From Gammaproteobacteria bacterium (GTDB lineage: Bacteria > Gemmatimonadota > Gemmatimonadetes > Longimicrobiales > Gaopeijiaceae), in the NCBI GenBank assembly GCA_028819075.1, contig JAPPMM010000059.1:1-64000 (forward strand): a stretch of 64,000 nucleotides of DNA, in the 5' to 3' direction. The notes beneath the pieces were generated by a model, which was not told the origin of the DNA, ran no database searches, and saw only the letters and a program-made list of their open reading frames with translations. Within the stretch, counting starts at the first letter, position 1. Each line of letters opens with the position of its first letter. The translations under genes were made by a program, and so were the position numbers. Of the stretch, positions 3,626-14,700 are shown piece after piece.

Positions 3626-4807
3626 ATGAGCATAGCCTTCGTCGTGATGCAGATTGGAGACTCGGAGCTGAATCAGCTGTTCGACACGGTCATCCAACCG
3701 GCCATCGAGTCGGTAGGCCTGCAGGCGAAGCGGGTAGACCGTCACAACGAGGGCGGGCTGCTCAAGAGTGAGATCATCGAGTTCTTGAACAACTCGGACA
3801 TCATCATTGCCGATCTCACCAACGAACGACCCAACGTTTACCTGGAGGTCGGATATGCGATGGGAATCGACAAGTTTCGCAACCTAATCCTGACTTGCAG
3901 GAGCGACCACCTGCCCGGCAACGCCGGCTGGCAACCAGACGGTCCCAAGATCCACTTCGACCTCGTGGGATACGACATTTTGCTTTGGGAACCATCCGAG
4001 CCCGACAGCTTTCGCCAAGAACTGAAACGTCGAATTCGGCGACGACGGGCACTCCTCTCGCCGGTCACCCAAGTCCAAGAGCCGGTACTCGACATGGACT
4101 GGGTACGAACCCACCAAGAAACTGCCTCGCGCCAGATGGCGGAGACGGGCTTCACGGCCTACATGGAGGCATCGTTCGGAATCGCCGCTCCCAAACCTGA
4201 CCGCAGTCCGTCCGAGCTATTGAGCGCGGCTTCAGATGCTATGATTCGAACCTTCGGATGGCCCATCGGCGTCGTCTTCCATGATGTACCCGAGTATCAA
4301 CCCCGGCCTCGGTCAGATGGAATCGTGGCTGAGGTAAAGCGGGCGGGTGAGTTCCCGGATTCCTACTACGACTACTGGGCCCTGCGGCGGAATGGAGACT
4401 TTTTCCTTCGGAAGAGCCTCTTCGAGGACAAGCGGGACCCGACTGCGATCTTCTTCAACACGAGAATTGTCAGGAACACCGAGCTGCTGATGTATGCCCT
4501 TAGGTTGTACGACCGGCTCGCCATCGACCCCTCGACCCGATTCGAACTCGAACTCCGTTACGGTGGACTAAACGGCCGGGTGCTGCGTACCTCGTCACCT
4601 AACCGCTACATGTCCGGATCCCATACGTGCTCCGAGGATCAGATCACGACGAGCTACAACGGTAGCCTACAAGACGTCGAGGGAAGCCTCACGGAGGTCG
4701 TGAAACAGCTCACCGCGCCCATGCTTGCTCTGTTTGATTTCTTCGAGTTGGCTGACTCAATCTATCAGGAAATCGTGGAAGCCTACGTGGAGGGTCGAGT
4801 AACGTAA
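3626..4807 (+). CDS. TIR/nucleoside 2-deoxyribosyltransferase-like protein with unknown C-terminal domain
   Basis: The 393-residue product opens with a flavodoxin-like alpha/beta fold of the TIR / nucleoside deoxyribosyltransferase-like superfamily. FVVMQIGDSELNQLFDTVI is the first strand and loop. DIIIADLTNERPNVYLEVGYAMG (residues 58-80) carries the conserved Asp63 and the putative catalytic Glu74. These domains cleave N-glycosidic bonds of nucleotides such as NAD+ in several anti-phage systems. The remaining ~250 residues are not recognised and may be a sensor or oligomerisation domain. The start at ATG 3626 follows GGAGATCGAGGAG. The gene sits at the left edge of an island rich in restriction and HEPN genes, consistent with a stand-alone defence effector; that role is inference. 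Confidence 0.65.
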   Translation: MSIAFVVMQIGDSELNQLFDTVIQPAIESVGLQAKRVDRHNEGGLLKSEIIEFLNNSDIIIADLTNERPNVYLEVGYAMGIDKFRNLILTCRSDHLPGNAGWQPDGPKIHFDLVGYDILLWEPSEPDSFRQELKRRIRRRRALLSPVTQVQEPVLDMDWVRTHQETASRQMAETGFTAYMEASFGIAAPKPDRSPSELLSAASDAMIRTFGWPIGVVFHDVPEYQPRPRSDGIVAEVKRAGEFPDSYYDYWALRRNGDFFLRKSLFEDKRDPTAIFFNTRIVRNTELLMYALRLYDRLAIDPSTRFELELRYGGLNGRVLRTSSPNRYMSGSHTCSEDQITTSYNGSLQDVEGSLTEVVKQLTAPMLALFDFFELADSIYQEIVEAYVEGRVT

Positions 4808-5359: not shown

Positions 5360-5421
5360 GGTCATGACAGGCTTGACGAGGTAATGGCTGTCCACTACCT
5401 TGGTTTACATACCTCATGACC
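5360..5421. promoter_or_regulatory. Nested inverted repeats, likely operator/promoter of the downstream wHTH gene
   Basis: Two inverted-repeat pairs are nested upstream of the gene at 5438: GGTCATGA (5360-5367) with TCATGACC (5414-5421), and GAGGTA (5378-5383) with TACCTC (5410-5415). A -35-like TTGACG lies at 5373-5378 with a poor -10 (TACCTT) 17 nt later at 5396-5401. This layout suits autoregulation by a DNA-binding protein, possibly one of the two following gene products. Confidence 0.4.
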
Positions 5422-5437
5422 ACAGGAGTTGGCCATC

Positions 5438-5947
5438 ATGCCTTTGGACCCCGAGATCAAAGCTATGTCAGACATCGTGTCTGCCTTAGAAGACCTGGAG
5501 GATGTACAGGTCACCCGCGTCTTGAACTGGGCGCAGGAAAGGTACAGCGTTTCCCGACCACGTGTTGGATCTTCCACTTCCAGGCGGACAACACCTACCG
5601 CCGATAAGGGAGCCCATGCCACGTCTGCGTCTGGGTATGCTGAATTCCATGACCTTTTCGAAGCTGCCAGCCCGAACACCGTGTTGAATCGCATACTCGT
5701 TGCCGCGTATTGGCTTCAGGTGGAGAAGAATCAGGACACTTTCGGCAGCGGTCCAGTCAACCGAGAGCTGAAGCACGTGGGGTACCCGTCGTCCAACATA
5801 ACGAGGGATCTGAACAAGCTGATGAACCGGTCCCCAAAGCTCGTGATGAAGGTTCGAAAGGAGGGCTCGGCGAAGCAGTCACGCAATCGGTACAAGCTTA
5901 CCAGTCCGGGGATCGACGCCGTGGTCCAGATGCTCAAGAAGTCATGA
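5438..5947 (+). CDS. Small protein with predicted C-terminal winged-helix domain, first gene of a HEPN-associated pair
   Basis: The 169-residue product is not assigned to a named family. The start is the ATG at 5438, nine bases after AGGAG (5424-5428); a TTG three codons upstream lies too close to that site. Residues ~1-30 are acidic and helical, ~30-65 are Ser/Thr/Arg-rich and probably disordered. The C-terminal 100 residues (NRILVAAYWLQ...GSGPVNRELKHVGYPSSNITRDLNKL...RYKLTSPG) look like a winged helix with a recognition helix and a basic wing. The next gene begins 46 bases later and probably belongs to the same transcript. Within a restriction/HEPN island the pair looks like a conflict module, but no function has been shown. 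Confidence 0.6.
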   Translation: MPLDPEIKAMSDIVSALEDLEDVQVTRVLNWAQERYSVSRPRVGSSTSRRTTPTADKGAHATSASGYAEFHDLFEAASPNTVLNRILVAAYWLQVEKNQDTFGSGPVNRELKHVGYPSSNITRDLNKLMNRSPKLVMKVRKEGSAKQSRNRYKLTSPGIDAVVQMLKKS

Positions 5948-5993
5948 GACGTGCCGTTATCAGCCGACTCAACACACGGGAGTCGTACTACGG

Positions 5994-6722
5994 ATGCTGA
6001 GGCCCAACCGCCTAAAGGACCTGCTTGCTAGACCGGACTTTTCGCGTCGTGAGAAGATGTTGCTCTGCCTCGCACGAGAACCGCTAGCACCACGGCAGGT
6101 CCAGGAAGTTAGAGAGACAGCGCTCGCACATGGCCTCCGACACGCCTTAAACTGGAATGTTTCCCAGTTGTTGTCCGAACTTCAAGGGCTGGCGATCCGT
6201 TCCAAAGCAGGTTGGGAGCTTACTAGCGCTGGCCAGATCTCAGTGGGCAAACTCGCCGGATCGGCCGTTAGCGGACGTGCAATCCGGGTGGCGGTGGGGT
6301 TGAGGCGTCACCTTGATACAATTCGAGACGATACTACTCGAGGGTTCGTCGAGGAAGCGGTGCTGTGTCTGGAAAACGCGCTGCACCGGGCTGCCATCGT
6401 GCTGAGTTGGGTGGGTGCCGTTTCGGTGCTACAGCAACATGTGGCTCGTCTGCGGCTCCACGACTTCAACCGCGAGGCCCATCGGCGTTTCAAGAAATGG
6501 AAGCCGGCCCGAACCGCTGATGACCTTAGTCGTACCCGCGAGGCCGACTTCCTGATCGTCCTAGAGTCCATATCGGTTTTCGGAAAGAGCGTAAAGCAAG
6601 AGCTTGAGGCCGCCTTGAAACTGCGGAACGGATGCGGCCATCCCAACTCGCTCCAAGTCGGCGAAGCCAAGGCCGCGGCCCATGTGGAATCACTGATTCT
6701 CAACGTGTACTCGAAGTTCTGA
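5994..6722 (+). CDS. wHTH plus C-terminal HEPN-like protein
   Basis: The 242-residue product has an N-terminal part (1-~75) that looks like a winged helix (REKMLLCLAREPLAP...LSELQGLAIRSKAGWELTSAG). A helical C-terminal half follows. Its last 35 residues contain R211-N-G-C-G-H216, an R-x4-H motif followed by PNS, as in HEPN domains, which often act as RNases in toxin-antitoxin and abortive-infection systems. The conserved segment EEAVLCLENALHRAAIVLSWVGAV is typical of the helical core of this group. It lies 46 nt after the winged-helix gene. The RNase role is inference from the motif. Confidence 0.6.
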   Translation: MLRPNRLKDLLARPDFSRREKMLLCLAREPLAPRQVQEVRETALAHGLRHALNWNVSQLLSELQGLAIRSKAGWELTSAGQISVGKLAGSAVSGRAIRVAVGLRRHLDTIRDDTTRGFVEEAVLCLENALHRAAIVLSWVGAVSVLQQHVARLRLHDFNREAHRRFKKWKPARTADDLSRTREADFLIVLESISVFGKSVKQELEAALKLRNGCGHPNSLQVGEAKAAAHVESLILNVYSKF

Positions 6723-6875: not shown

Positions 6876-8425
<1,550 letters not shown>

Positions 8426-8429
<4 letters not shown>

Positions 8430-8851
8430 ACATCGACACCACCTTCCTGCGCCGCTGCATTGCTTCGCTGGAGCACGCGGTTGAGGGCATCGCACGTCAG
8501 GCAGACCGCGAAGATCTCATGTACGACATCTATCGCGCTGCTTGTGTCAAGGAGTTCGAGCTCGTCCTTGAGCAAAGCGGGAAGTTGCTGCGCAAGCGTC
8601 TCACCGCCTGGTTCGCTAGCAACCGCCAAGCGGACCGCCTGCATTTCAAGGATCTGTTCCGCCACGCGGCTCGCCACGACTTCATGGACTGCGAAACGGT
8701 CGAACGATGGCTGAGCTACCGGGACAACCGCAACTACACTGCGCACGATTACGGAGAGGACTTCGCGGAGGCCACCCTCCGGCTCCTACCGGACTTCATC
8801 CGTGACGCCAAGGCGCTGGCCGACATGATCGAGCAGGCCAACGATGACTGA
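8426..8851 (+). CDS. hepT: HEPN toxin of the MNT-HEPN (HepT/MntA) type
   Basis: This 141-residue protein belongs to the HEPN family known as nucleotidyltransferase substrate-binding protein. It carries the intact toxin motif R102-N-Y-T-A-H107-D-Y109 (RX4HXY). In characterised HepT/MntA pairs the HEPN protein is an RNase toxin, neutralised when MntA transfers AMP units to a tyrosine near this motif. The GTG start at 8426 overlaps the hsdM stop. The stop at 8851 overlaps by 8 nt the next gene, whose N-terminus is the matching MNT nucleotidyltransferase. The toxin-antitoxin pair is therefore embedded inside the restriction operon. Confidence 0.85.
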
Positions 8852-10454
8852 CCGCCTGCGCCTCTCGCCAAGGCATCGGCGCATCCTCACCTCGTTGCTG
8901 CGGGAGCACCTGCCTGATGTCGAAGTCTGGGCCTACGGGAGCCGCGTGAACGAGCGGGGCCACGAAGGCAGCGATCTCGATCTCGTGCTGCGGGGGCCGC
9001 AGCTGAGGAAGATTCCGTTCGAGCGACTGATGGACTTTGAGGACTCGGTGCGGGAGTCGACGATTCCGTTCCTGGTCGAGGCGCGGGACTGGGCGAGGCT
9101 GCCGGAGCGGTTCCACCGGGAGATCGAGCGGGAGTATGTAGTGCTGGTGTCTTCAGATACTCGGTGGCAGGAAGCCAGACTGGGTGATGTAATCCGCCTG
9201 GTGTCTGGAGGAACGCCGTCAAAGAAGCGGGAAGAATACTGGAACGGCGCGATCCCCTGGGTCTCAGCGAGAGACATGAGGCGGTTTCGGCTCCGCGATA
9301 CGACTCATCATGTCACTGCGGAAGGGCTCGCCAACGGCACCAAGCAGGTCCCGGTCGGCACGATCCTGCTTCTGACCAGGGGCATGAGACTCCTGAAGGA
9401 GCTACCCGTTTGCGTCACAGAACGACCGATGGCGTTCAACCAGGACATCAAGGCTCTCTTACCAAAGACCCGGATGGACCCCGATTTCCTTCCATACCTT
9501 GTTCTTGGCAACAAACAGCGGCTCCTGAATCTCGTAGACCTCGCAGGTCACGGTACAGGACGCATCAACAGTGACGAACTGCGCGCCCTCGATGTCCGGC
9601 TGCCACCGACGTCCGAGCAGCGCGCCATCGCCCACATCCTCAGCAAGCTGGATGACAAGATCGAACTGAATCGGCGGATGAGTGAGGCGCTGGAGATGAT
9701 GGCACGGGCGCTGTTCAGGTCCTGGTTCGTTGATTTCGATCCGGTACGCGCCAAGATGAACGACCGGGACACCGGCTTTCCGCAGAACATCGCCGACCTG
9801 TTCCCCGACCGGCTGATGGATTCTGAGATGGGGCAGATTCCAGAGGGATGGCATGTTGCGACCTTGGCGGAGCGCATCGAGGTCAACCCGAGGCGATCTC
9901 TTCGACGGGGACAGACCGCTCCTTATCTTCCGATGGCCAATATGCCGACCCAGGGTCACCTGCCGGATGCCGTGGCGGTTCGACCCTTCGGATCCGGCAT
10001 GCGGTTTGCTAACGGCGATACGCTTGTGGCCCGGATCACACCGTGCCTTGAGAACGGCAAGACGGCCTACGTGGATTTCTTAGCCGACGGCGAGGTCGGA
10101 TGGGGCTCTACCGAGTACATCGTCCTGAGGCCGAAGCCCCCGCTTCCAAATCAGTTCGGGTACTTCCTCGCTCGGAGTGCAAGGTTTCGCGAATTCGCAA
10201 CCCAGAACATGAGCGGCACGAGCGGCCGCCAGCGGGTGTCGCCAACCGCGCTGCGAGGCTTCCGTATGGTCGCGCCACCAAGCCGGGTGGCCGCGCGGTT
10301 CGGTGAAGTCGCCCGATCACTCTTCGAGAGAGTCAGCAAAGCGAGTCACGAATCCCACACCCTCGCCGCTCTCCGCGATACTCTCCTCCCGAAGCTCATC
10401 TCCGGCAAGATCCGCGTAGGTGATGCCGATAAGGCAATGGAGTTCATCGCATGA
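8844..10454 (+). CDS. hsdS: MntA-like nucleotidyltransferase fused to type I specificity subunit HsdS
   Basis: The 536-residue product joins two families in one frame. Residues 1-~100 are a minimal nucleotidyltransferase with the exact GSX10DXD signature (G32-S33...D44-L-D46) seen in MntA antitoxins. From ~103 a full-length HsdS follows. Target-recognition domain 1 begins WQEARLGDVIRLVSGGTPS. The central conserved helix is at TSEQRAIAHILSKLDDKIELN with FRSWFVDFDPV. TRD2 comes next, and the C-terminal helix is LAALRDTLLPKLISGKI. The partner HEPN gene is immediately upstream and overlaps by 8 nt. No stop or frameshift separates the two parts. The fusion would place the antitoxin activity on the DNA-recognition subunit. 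Confidence 0.9.
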   Translation: MTDRLRLSPRHRRILTSLLREHLPDVEVWAYGSRVNERGHEGSDLDLVLRGPQLRKIPFERLMDFEDSVRESTIPFLVEARDWARLPERFHREIEREYVVLVSSDTRWQEARLGDVIRLVSGGTPSKKREEYWNGAIPWVSARDMRRFRLRDTTHHVTAEGLANGTKQVPVGTILLLTRGMRLLKELPVCVTERPMAFNQDIKALLPKTRMDPDFLPYLVLGNKQRLLNLVDLAGHGTGRINSDELRALDVRLPPTSEQRAIAHILSKLDDKIELNRRMSEALEMMARALFRSWFVDFDPVRAKMNDRDTGFPQNIADLFPDRLMDSEMGQIPEGWHVATLAERIEVNPRRSLRRGQTAPYLPMANMPTQGHLPDAVAVRPFGSGMRFANGDTLVARITPCLENGKTAYVDFLADGEVGWGSTEYIVLRPKPPLPNQFGYFLARSARFREFATQNMSGTSGRQRVSPTALRGFRMVAPPSRVAARFGEVARSLFERVSKASHESHTLAALRDTLLPKLISGKIRVGDADKAMEFIA

Positions 10455-10620
10455 CGCCGTCGCCTGGAACGCCCCGGCTTCGGTACGGCGTGCGCGCCGG
10501 AGGCACCACCGGTCGTATCCGACCAAGGAATCAGGAAGCTTCTGCATTGGAGTATAGTGAAGGGCAGCGCTTCGAACACCGATGCGTTCCCACGGATGGC
10601 TCGGCCGAGAGGATCGAACT
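10455..10620. promoter_or_regulatory. Intergenic gap with a possible promoter
   Basis: A -10-like TATAGT lies at 10553-10558 ahead of the DUF3800 gene, without a clear -35. It suggests, weakly, that this gene and hsdR can be transcribed apart from hsdM-hepT-hsdS. Confidence 0.25.
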
Positions 10621-11529
10621 GTGACTTCGTCCACGAGCTACGTTGTTTTCTCTGACGAGAGCCGTCACACCGAGGGTCGCTTTCGCAGCATCGCTGCGGT
10701 ATCCCTACCATGTGATCCGCCGAGTCACGTCGTTGATCTGACTGCCAAGCTTGCGGACGCCCTGGAGTTCACGACGAAGGGCGAATTGAAGTGGCTGAAA
10801 GTCGGACGGAGAGCCCGAACCAACGTCGCGCGGGCAACGGCAGCCATTGATTTCCTTCTTTCACACCTCTCTCACGGTGTCCGGTGCGATGTGGTCGTCT
10901 GGGATACAACGGACTCTCGGCATGCCGTCGAGAGGCGAGACGATGTCGCAAACTATGGCCGGATGTTCTTTCACCTACATCGCGCGCTCATGCGTCGCCG
11001 GGGAGCGGACGCCCACTGGCACCTCCGCCCAGACCAACTGATCACTATTGACTGGGCTACGATACGGGATTGCCTCAACAGCGATGGCACTTGGAAACAA
11101 GACTCCCACACGGCGTTGGGCGCGGAATACCGTTGGATCGTGCCAATGGTGCGGACCTTCAGGGAAGTGGATTCCGCTGCCACGCCGTTCGTCCAGCTGG
11201 CCGACCTGTTCGCTGGCATGGCCACGTACACGCGCATGTCTTGGAAGGTTATTCGCACGCTGCTGGCTGAGAACGAAAACCAACAGGACCTGTTTCCGGC
11301 CGTCCCACCGCCTGAGTCCAGACCGACCTCCAAAGACCGTGGTCGTTTTCGGGTCGTGTCCCATTTCTACCGTCGCGCCAAGGTAGCGAAACTTGGGATA
11401 TCGCTCAACGCCCATGGGTATCTCCGAACGCCCAATCCCCTGAACCCTATCAACTTCTGGCACTACGAGCCGCAGCACCCCGCGGACAAGGCCCCCACGA
11501 AGGACCGGGGAGGAGTGCTTCTGCCGTGA
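10621..11529 (+). CDS. DUF3800 domain protein
   Basis: The 302-residue product begins with the diagnostic DUF3800 segment (YVVFSDESRH), followed by an RNase H-like layout of acidic residues (VVVWDTTDS, ITIDWATIR, FVQLADLFAGM). DUF3800 proteins are predicted nuclease-like and are frequent in defence islands and phages; no activity is established. I choose the GTG at 10621, which follows GAGAGG; an ATG at 10582 would add 13 residues without family resemblance. It lies between hsdS and hsdR, 30 nt before hsdR, so it is probably cotranscribed with the restriction subunit. Confidence 0.75.
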   Translation: MTSSTSYVVFSDESRHTEGRFRSIAAVSLPCDPPSHVVDLTAKLADALEFTTKGELKWLKVGRRARTNVARATAAIDFLLSHLSHGVRCDVVVWDTTDSRHAVERRDDVANYGRMFFHLHRALMRRRGADAHWHLRPDQLITIDWATIRDCLNSDGTWKQDSHTALGAEYRWIVPMVRTFREVDSAATPFVQLADLFAGMATYTRMSWKVIRTLLAENENQQDLFPAVPPPESRPTSKDRGRFRVVSHFYRRAKVAKLGISLNAHGYLRTPNPLNPINFWHYEPQHPADKAPTKDRGGVLLP

Positions 11530-11559
11530 CAGTCATCGGCACTTGACCCAGGCCGTTCC

Positions 11560-14700
<3,141 letters not shown>

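Follow-up and report, generated by a model that had tools for sequence, protein, structure and literature searches.

HEPN ribonucleases are found in toxin-antitoxin, CRISPR, retron, and phage defense systems, and for each of these the mechanism that restrains the RNase, whose activity in this superfamily is metal independent, is a key question. In type VII toxin-antitoxin systems (HEPN/MNT, HepT-MntA), the toxin carries the motif RX4HXY and its partner is a minimal nucleotidyltransferase, while in type IV systems, AbiEi is a winged-helix antitoxin and its effector, AbiEii, is a nucleotidyltransferase. In type II systems, toxin and antitoxin genes lie side by side in one direction, the toxic protein is neutralized by a protein antitoxin, and the operon is autorepressed via an operator. 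The nearest mechanism that we found in print is that of the type IX retron, whose operon encodes both a HEPN RNase and a winged-helix protein, as does the pair described here. According to its description (PMC13405049), the HEPN dimer of retron-Kva2 is sequestered with the winged-helix protein and freed by a phage protein, which releases tRNA cleavage; in the model given there, the HEPN protein stays idle until the phage protein engages the DNA sensor.

The pair described here lies at positions 5360 to 6722 of a stretch of 64,000 nucleotides (the window). A first-pass annotation had presented it as an autoregulated RNase toxin pair belonging to none of the named types, and we found no description of it in the open-licence PMC literature, which was the part that could be searched. 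Our main reading, to which we give a probability of about 0.6, is that of a putative autonomous two-gene HEPN RNase effector module working in toxin-antitoxin or abortive-infection style. As in type VII systems, there are two genes and a HEPN fold. However, gene 1 has no nucleotidyltransferase match at E values of ≤1 and models as a winged helix, and gene 2 reads R-N-G-C-G-H-P-N, with no Y two positions after the H; membership in HEPN/MNT was rejected because there is no nucleotidyltransferase partner. One partner of type A (see below) matches AbiEi (E value, 0.0067), but the effector here is a HEPN protein, in contrast to the nucleotidyltransferase AbiEii of type IV.

Predicted folds of the two proteins

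Gene 1 (169 amino acids, positions 5438 to 5947 on the plus strand) is listed among the open reading frames with an ATG at 5438, an alternative TTG at 5429, and the stop at 5947, and was further characterized by a structure model and structural matches. The model, made from 11 sequences (mean pLDDT, 77.8), predicts a helical hairpin (residues 5 to 36), a disordered segment (39 to 64), and a winged helix (ca. 70 to 168), the last of these mostly with pLDDT values of >90. The C-terminal winged helix that had been read from the sequence at first pass was thus recovered, with structural matches of the PadR/MarR type; the nearest were AF1382 (3ov8; Z, 10.1; rmsd, 1.7; 78 aligned) and the DNA-bound PadR chain 5x11_C (Z, 9.8; rmsd, 2.1; 81 aligned). 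Neither Pfam nor NCBIfam gave a match to gene 1 at E values of ≤1, PDB profile searches with the partners gave nothing below 0.05, and a viral scan with type B, the partner type of gene 1, found no relative. AT-hook-like linkers (GRPRG or GRPKG, recognized by eye) occur in relatives of gene 1 and, together with the PadR/MarR-like winged helix, point to a DNA-binding character. Five aligned sequences from genomes of the same order (L075, L078, L081, L082, and L083) combine the window-type winged helix with a helical hairpin and an AT-hook-like linker.

Gene 2 (242 amino acids, positions 5994 to 6722 on the plus strand) was defined from the open reading frame list, a model, and alignments. Its model, made from 59 aligned sequences, has a mean pLDDT of 91.8 and predicts a winged helix (residues ca. 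4 to 88) followed by a C-terminal helical domain (ca. 96 to 239). When residues 111 to 242 were compared by VIA-align, HEPN chains ranked first, for instance, 2hsb (Z, 11.5; rmsd, 2.2; 107 aligned), the Csm6' structure 8pe3 (Z, 10.2; rmsd, 2.8; 113 aligned), and MntA-HepT 7bxo_F (Z, 9.5; rmsd, 3.1; 111 aligned), with Z values of a size that helical bundles can also attain by chance. The first part of the protein matched VanR, PadR, and MarR types. The architecture proposed earlier, a winged helix joined to a HEPN-like C terminus with R211-x4-H216, therefore agrees with the model. Foldseek searches with the model gave no E value of <0.001, single-sequence PDB searches gave no useful match, Pfam and NCBIfam gave none at E values of ≤1, and the single weak PHROG match was phrog_27609, of unknown function (1.5e-4). 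By profile comparison, the winged helix of gene 2 had no detectable relation to that of any partner type, type C being the nearest (9%).

In the model, the motif (R211-N212-x3-H216-P217) stands where HEPN proteins usually have it, at the point where a long helix ends, and the predicted helical HEPN fold and RX4-6H motif would place gene 2 in the HEPN superfamily. R211, N212, and H216 are invariant in all 62 rows of the gene 2 alignment, a figure that is biased because RNGCGHPN was one of the six patterns used to find the family. In 11 rows aligned from whole-profile scans without a motif filter, divergent relatives included (matches in L004, L089, and L143 were left out), R and H are kept in all 11 and N is kept in 10; the residues between them vary. 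Compared with a sister genome, both genes are under purifying selection, with dN/dS ratios (from the computed dN and dS) of ca. 0.20 for gene 1 and ca. 0.15 for gene 2.

Given the likeness to retron-Kva2 (PMC13405049), the pair might be taken for a retron-type system with its reverse transcriptase encoded at another place in the genome. Along these lines, Foldseek matched the winged helix of gene 2 to the retron-Eco1 effector (probability, 0.96; E value, 0.79), and a partner-like protein in L131 matches NDT_II-A (2.6e-4). However, of 35 gene 2-bearing genomes searched with PF00078, 18 had a reverse transcriptase match, none of them within 60 kb of gene 2, the finding on which retron membership was rejected. 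In addition, the retron-Kva2 HEPN protein is described as lacking the canonical motif (PMC13405049), whereas gene 2 has kept a canonical R-N-x3-H and has a winged helix of its own. We consider a retron-type system extremely improbable. The earlier claim that the pair is not one of the named types was supported.

Pairing with small partners and their exchange

Relatives of gene 2 were found in genomes with eight different phylum labels (61 loci) and on 2 viral contigs, one of which is close to L062; a viral scan with the gene 2 alignment returned the same two contigs. Partners were called with profiles of three types (A, B, and C). A small partner was present within 1.8 kb of all 58 full-length genomic copies of gene 2; since these very loci supplied most of the sequences for profiles A4, A5, and C, this recognition is partly circular, but the position of the partner is not. 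The partner was upstream on the same strand in 57 of the 58 copies and divergent in 1, so that the genes are co-directional neighbors, as in type II toxin-antitoxin systems. All three genomic copies without a partner are fragments (L064, 147 amino acids; L065, 117 amino acids at a contig edge; L066, a 40-amino-acid remnant). Signs of decay were seen at two loci with only 3' remnants of gene 2 and in G508, where a stop interrupts the gene 2 frame and the partner is intact. As for the viral copies, L068 is paired with type A; at L067, no match to any of the three partner profiles was found. The two-gene module postulated at first pass is thus borne out by this neighborhood survey.

The same arrangement was found among 385 genomes of the class of G439, where the gene 2 profile matched in 10, with four strong and six divergent matches. 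Type A lies directly upstream in each of the four strong ones (G439 and G462, which were already known, and two new genomes), and a small same-strand gene lies upstream in five of the six divergent ones (G555, G778, G642, G782, and G842); in G604, the sixth, no small upstream gene was seen. Along similar lines, 31 of 34 genomes with gene 2 had one strong type A copy; in the other three, the partner was C, B, or D. A further three type A matches were weak and sit in open frames of >500 residues.

Frequent occurrence of each gene without the other had been named as an argument against the pair. It was not seen for gene 2, always paired in its 58 full-length copies, but partners of the window's type, or their domain, were indeed found alone, namely, a window-type partner without gene 2 in G009 and 11 order-level relatives that are similar over the winged helix only. 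Type A was found without gene 2 in G774 and G663. Such an asymmetry, with partner-type genes occurring without gene 2, is what would be expected if one protein is an inhibitor and the other a harmful effector.

Other combinations of such genes were also observed. In G009, of the same genus, L092 (9526 to 11361) has a window-type partner followed by a different HEPN-like gene with the motif RNNRDAAH (by eye) and a C-terminal winged-helix-like part and then by a type A-like partner, an unknown gene, and a DNA methylase. Profile comparison did not link this HEPN-like gene to gene 2, Pfam gave it no match above the cutoff, and calling it HEPN is a guess from its motif. In L141 (2000 to 2743, with 1477 to 1995) and L142 (697 to 1968), HEPN genes without a winged helix are preceded by a partner whose C-terminal motif reads INIQLHLPE.

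The usual partner is of type A, present in 51 of the 58 full-length loci (two also with B and two also with C). Type B alone accounts for four (L006, L007, L022, and L063) and type C alone for three. L006 is the window's locus in a genome of the same species, L022 has its B partner on the opposite strand, and L063 is a weak match, called D. In the three-gene loci, the order is B-A-gene 2 (L027 and L038) or C-A-gene 2 (L037 and L052). On a tree of 56 rows (L059, L060, L064, L065, L067, and L068 were left out, and L066 had no usable open reading frame), the absence of type A required five changes, at least four of them forced by well-supported branches, which indicates that the partner was exchanged several times or that type A was repeatedly lost from three-gene loci. 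Therefore, the composition of the pair as originally described holds for a near-obligate small partner but not for its kind, which is usually another type and has been replaced repeatedly.

Profile comparisons linked type B with C (71%, 3.7e-5) and with D (95%, 5e-8) along most of the sequence and with the partners of the divergent family (91%, 9e-7) over the winged helix alone. The winged helix as the constant part of B, C, D, and the divergent partners is thus well supported by these comparisons. The link between A and B was marginal (68%, falling to 21% with a larger B set) and none was found between A and C, D, or the divergent partner set, so that a constant winged helix is weakly suggested for A as well. 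As a tentative proposal, the family could be an unnamed widespread class in which one winged-helix-HEPN effector works with interchangeable small subunits, each made of a constant winged helix, by which the effector would be held, and a swapped N-terminal sensor. The swapped sensors might then be a helical hairpin, a beta-hairpin-helix, or others, possibly giving one killer different triggers.

Partner exchange would also fit receptors under diversifying pressure. The pair would then be a sensor-effector defense pair without antitoxin logic, in which gene 1 is a receptor or activator that binds a phage cue and gene 2 alone is idle. The HEPN region of divergent relatives is weakly similar to that of the phage defense protein PD-T7-3 (PADLOC PDLC04108; L138, E value of 7.5e-5), the C-terminal motif of the L142 partner, though not gene 1, matches the PADLOC candidate defense family PDC-M34A (1.6e-8), and the gene 2 profile matches the PDB entry “Dandelion-hepn” (5e-4). 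In the open-licence PMC literature, “PDC-M34” gave no match and “Dandelion” gave no relevant paper. However, the PD-T7-3 model, of 432 positions, is matched only at its start, the gene 2 protein of the window reaches an E value of only 0.023 (positions 9 to 121), and defense genes are not clearly enriched around the loci (see below). On balance, we regard a sensor-effector pair of this kind as rather unlikely.

The distribution of the gene 2 family is patchy, with profile matches in 8 of 395 and 10 of 385 sampled genomes (the class-level search around G197 covered only 6 genomes). Many addiction modules occur on plasmids or phages, but searches of 72,556 plasmid and 50,697 phage records gave no match to gene 2. 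This, the PadR/MarR-like character of gene 1, and the presence of window-type winged-helix relatives without gene 2 in several order-level relatives would suit an ordinary nontoxic regulator pair for transcription or RNA processing, in which the HEPN protein processes a specific RNA. Such a role is improbable given the very patchy presence of the family, its decayed remnants, and the lack of conserved neighbors.

Upstream repeats and genomic neighborhood

The nested inverted repeats reported upstream of gene 1 were confirmed. The outer pair, GGTCATGA and TCATGACC (positions 5360 to 5367 and 5414 to 5421), is a candidate operator with perfect 8-bp arms and 46 nucleotides between them, although an 8-bp inverted repeat this close was found in 6.8% of shuffles. 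The inner pair (5380 to 5387 and 5392 to 5399) is imperfect, with 7/8 pairing. By a second palindrome measure, the window had no excess (5 observed, near the middle of the shuffles). The presumed promoter on the plus strand, TTGACG (5373 to 5378) and TACCTT (5396 to 5401) with 17 nucleotides between them, agrees with the consensus at 8 of 12 positions by eye, but it is not listed by a promoter scan with a threshold of 9/12.

At the sister locus (L007), the promoter equivalent is TTGACC/TACCAT, and the arms are GGTCAAG and CTTGACC, changed on both sides with pairing kept. CTTGACC occurs three times in this region on either strand (any 7-mer occurred three times in 2.1% of shuffles). GGTCAWG-like sites numbered 5 and 4, compared with 0.85 and 0.55 in shuffles, for a motif that was chosen after viewing the sequences. 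Across the family, upstream inverted repeats were found in 1 of 52 regions at P values of ≤0.05 and in 2 of 52 at P values of ≤0.1, which is fewer than expected by chance and therefore shows no operator for the family; an operator as a general family property was rejected on the former count. Autoregulation, as originally claimed, can thus be argued only for the window locus and its sister.

Downstream of the pair lies a type I restriction-modification cluster (6876 to 14700), and the pair could be taken for a part of that operon, acting as a backup suicide effector. Gene 2 ends only ca. 150 nucleotides before hsdM, and restriction-modification operons with HEPN genes have been described (PMC3710099). 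However, in 20 kb of the sister genome (L096), no HsdM- or HsdR-like gene was seen by eye in the open reading frame list, and an HsdM-like cluster was present within 10 kb in only 3 of the 61 genome loci. Dependence on type I restriction-modification genes was rejected on these two grounds, and a suicide effector of the adjacent operon is highly improbable.

The cluster itself contains a HEPN-type nucleotidyltransferase substrate-binding protein (8426 to 8851; PF08780, 5.5e-16) that overlaps a gene (8844 to 10454) in which a nucleotidyltransferase domain (PF01909) is fused to a type I specificity subunit (Methylase_S), that is, an MNT/HEPN-like pair built into the HsdS gene. A DUF3800 protein (10582 to 11529; PF12686, 4.1e-5; PDC-M04A, 6.3e-8) is encoded between the HsdS fusion gene and the HsdR gene. 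Upstream of the pair, at ca. 3640 to 4807, the end of a long open reading frame looks by eye like a TIR/SLOG/deoxyribosyltransferase-like nucleotide-binding protein (FVVMQIGDSELNQLFD..., IIIADLTNERPNVYLEVGYA).

Across the loci, no neighbor gene was conserved except the partner; further neighbor clusters look like antisense artifacts, and an ABC transporter cluster lies at scattered distances. Integrase-like genes were seen just upstream of the pair in L015 (7789 to 8583, integron type by eye) and L008 (8320 to 9330, tyrosine recombinase-like). Among the matches listed, PADLOC families were present both near and far from the pair (125 genes near and 115 of the 138 listed far; first 25 families, counted as model families and not as genes). 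In these sets, which include false antisense frames from a simple open reading frame caller, genes near the pair were not clearly richer in known defense families than genes farther off.

A putative effector module with a changing partner

The main reading, a HEPN effector module of toxin-antitoxin or abortive-infection style, draws on the HEPN fold and motif, the 58 of 58 pairing, the profile scans, the patchy spread, the interrupted gene 2 of G508, and the DNA-binding character of gene 1, as well as on the HEPN and winged-helix complex described for the retron (PMC13405049). Against it stand the lack of a general upstream repeat, of plasmid or phage matches, and of a clear defense enrichment, together with the marginal A-B link and HEPN Z values that helical bundles can reach.

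In the mechanism that we infer, gene 2 would be a HEPN ribonuclease that most likely acts as a dimer and has R211 and H216 in its catalytic center; “RNase toxin” is a putative label for it. Its N-terminal winged helix may serve for contact or nucleic acid binding. The C-terminal winged helix of gene 1 would bind the effector, nucleic acid, or both and keep the RNase idle, and its N-terminal part could be an exchangeable input or assembly module. At the window locus, gene 1 or the complex probably represses the promoter via GGTCAWG-type half-sites. Upon loss of the partner or its engagement by a trigger (nucleic acid, stress, or a phage product), the RNase would be freed and growth arrest would follow.

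The pair is a real, unnamed two-gene module in which a predicted HEPN RNase goes together with a near-obligate small partner whose type has changed repeatedly; the best reading of it is putative toxicity and restraint by the partner. Genes that now have no Pfam or NCBIfam match, under eight phylum labels, could then be named. The same effector with repeatedly different small partners is a natural experiment on which part restrains the RNase and which one senses.
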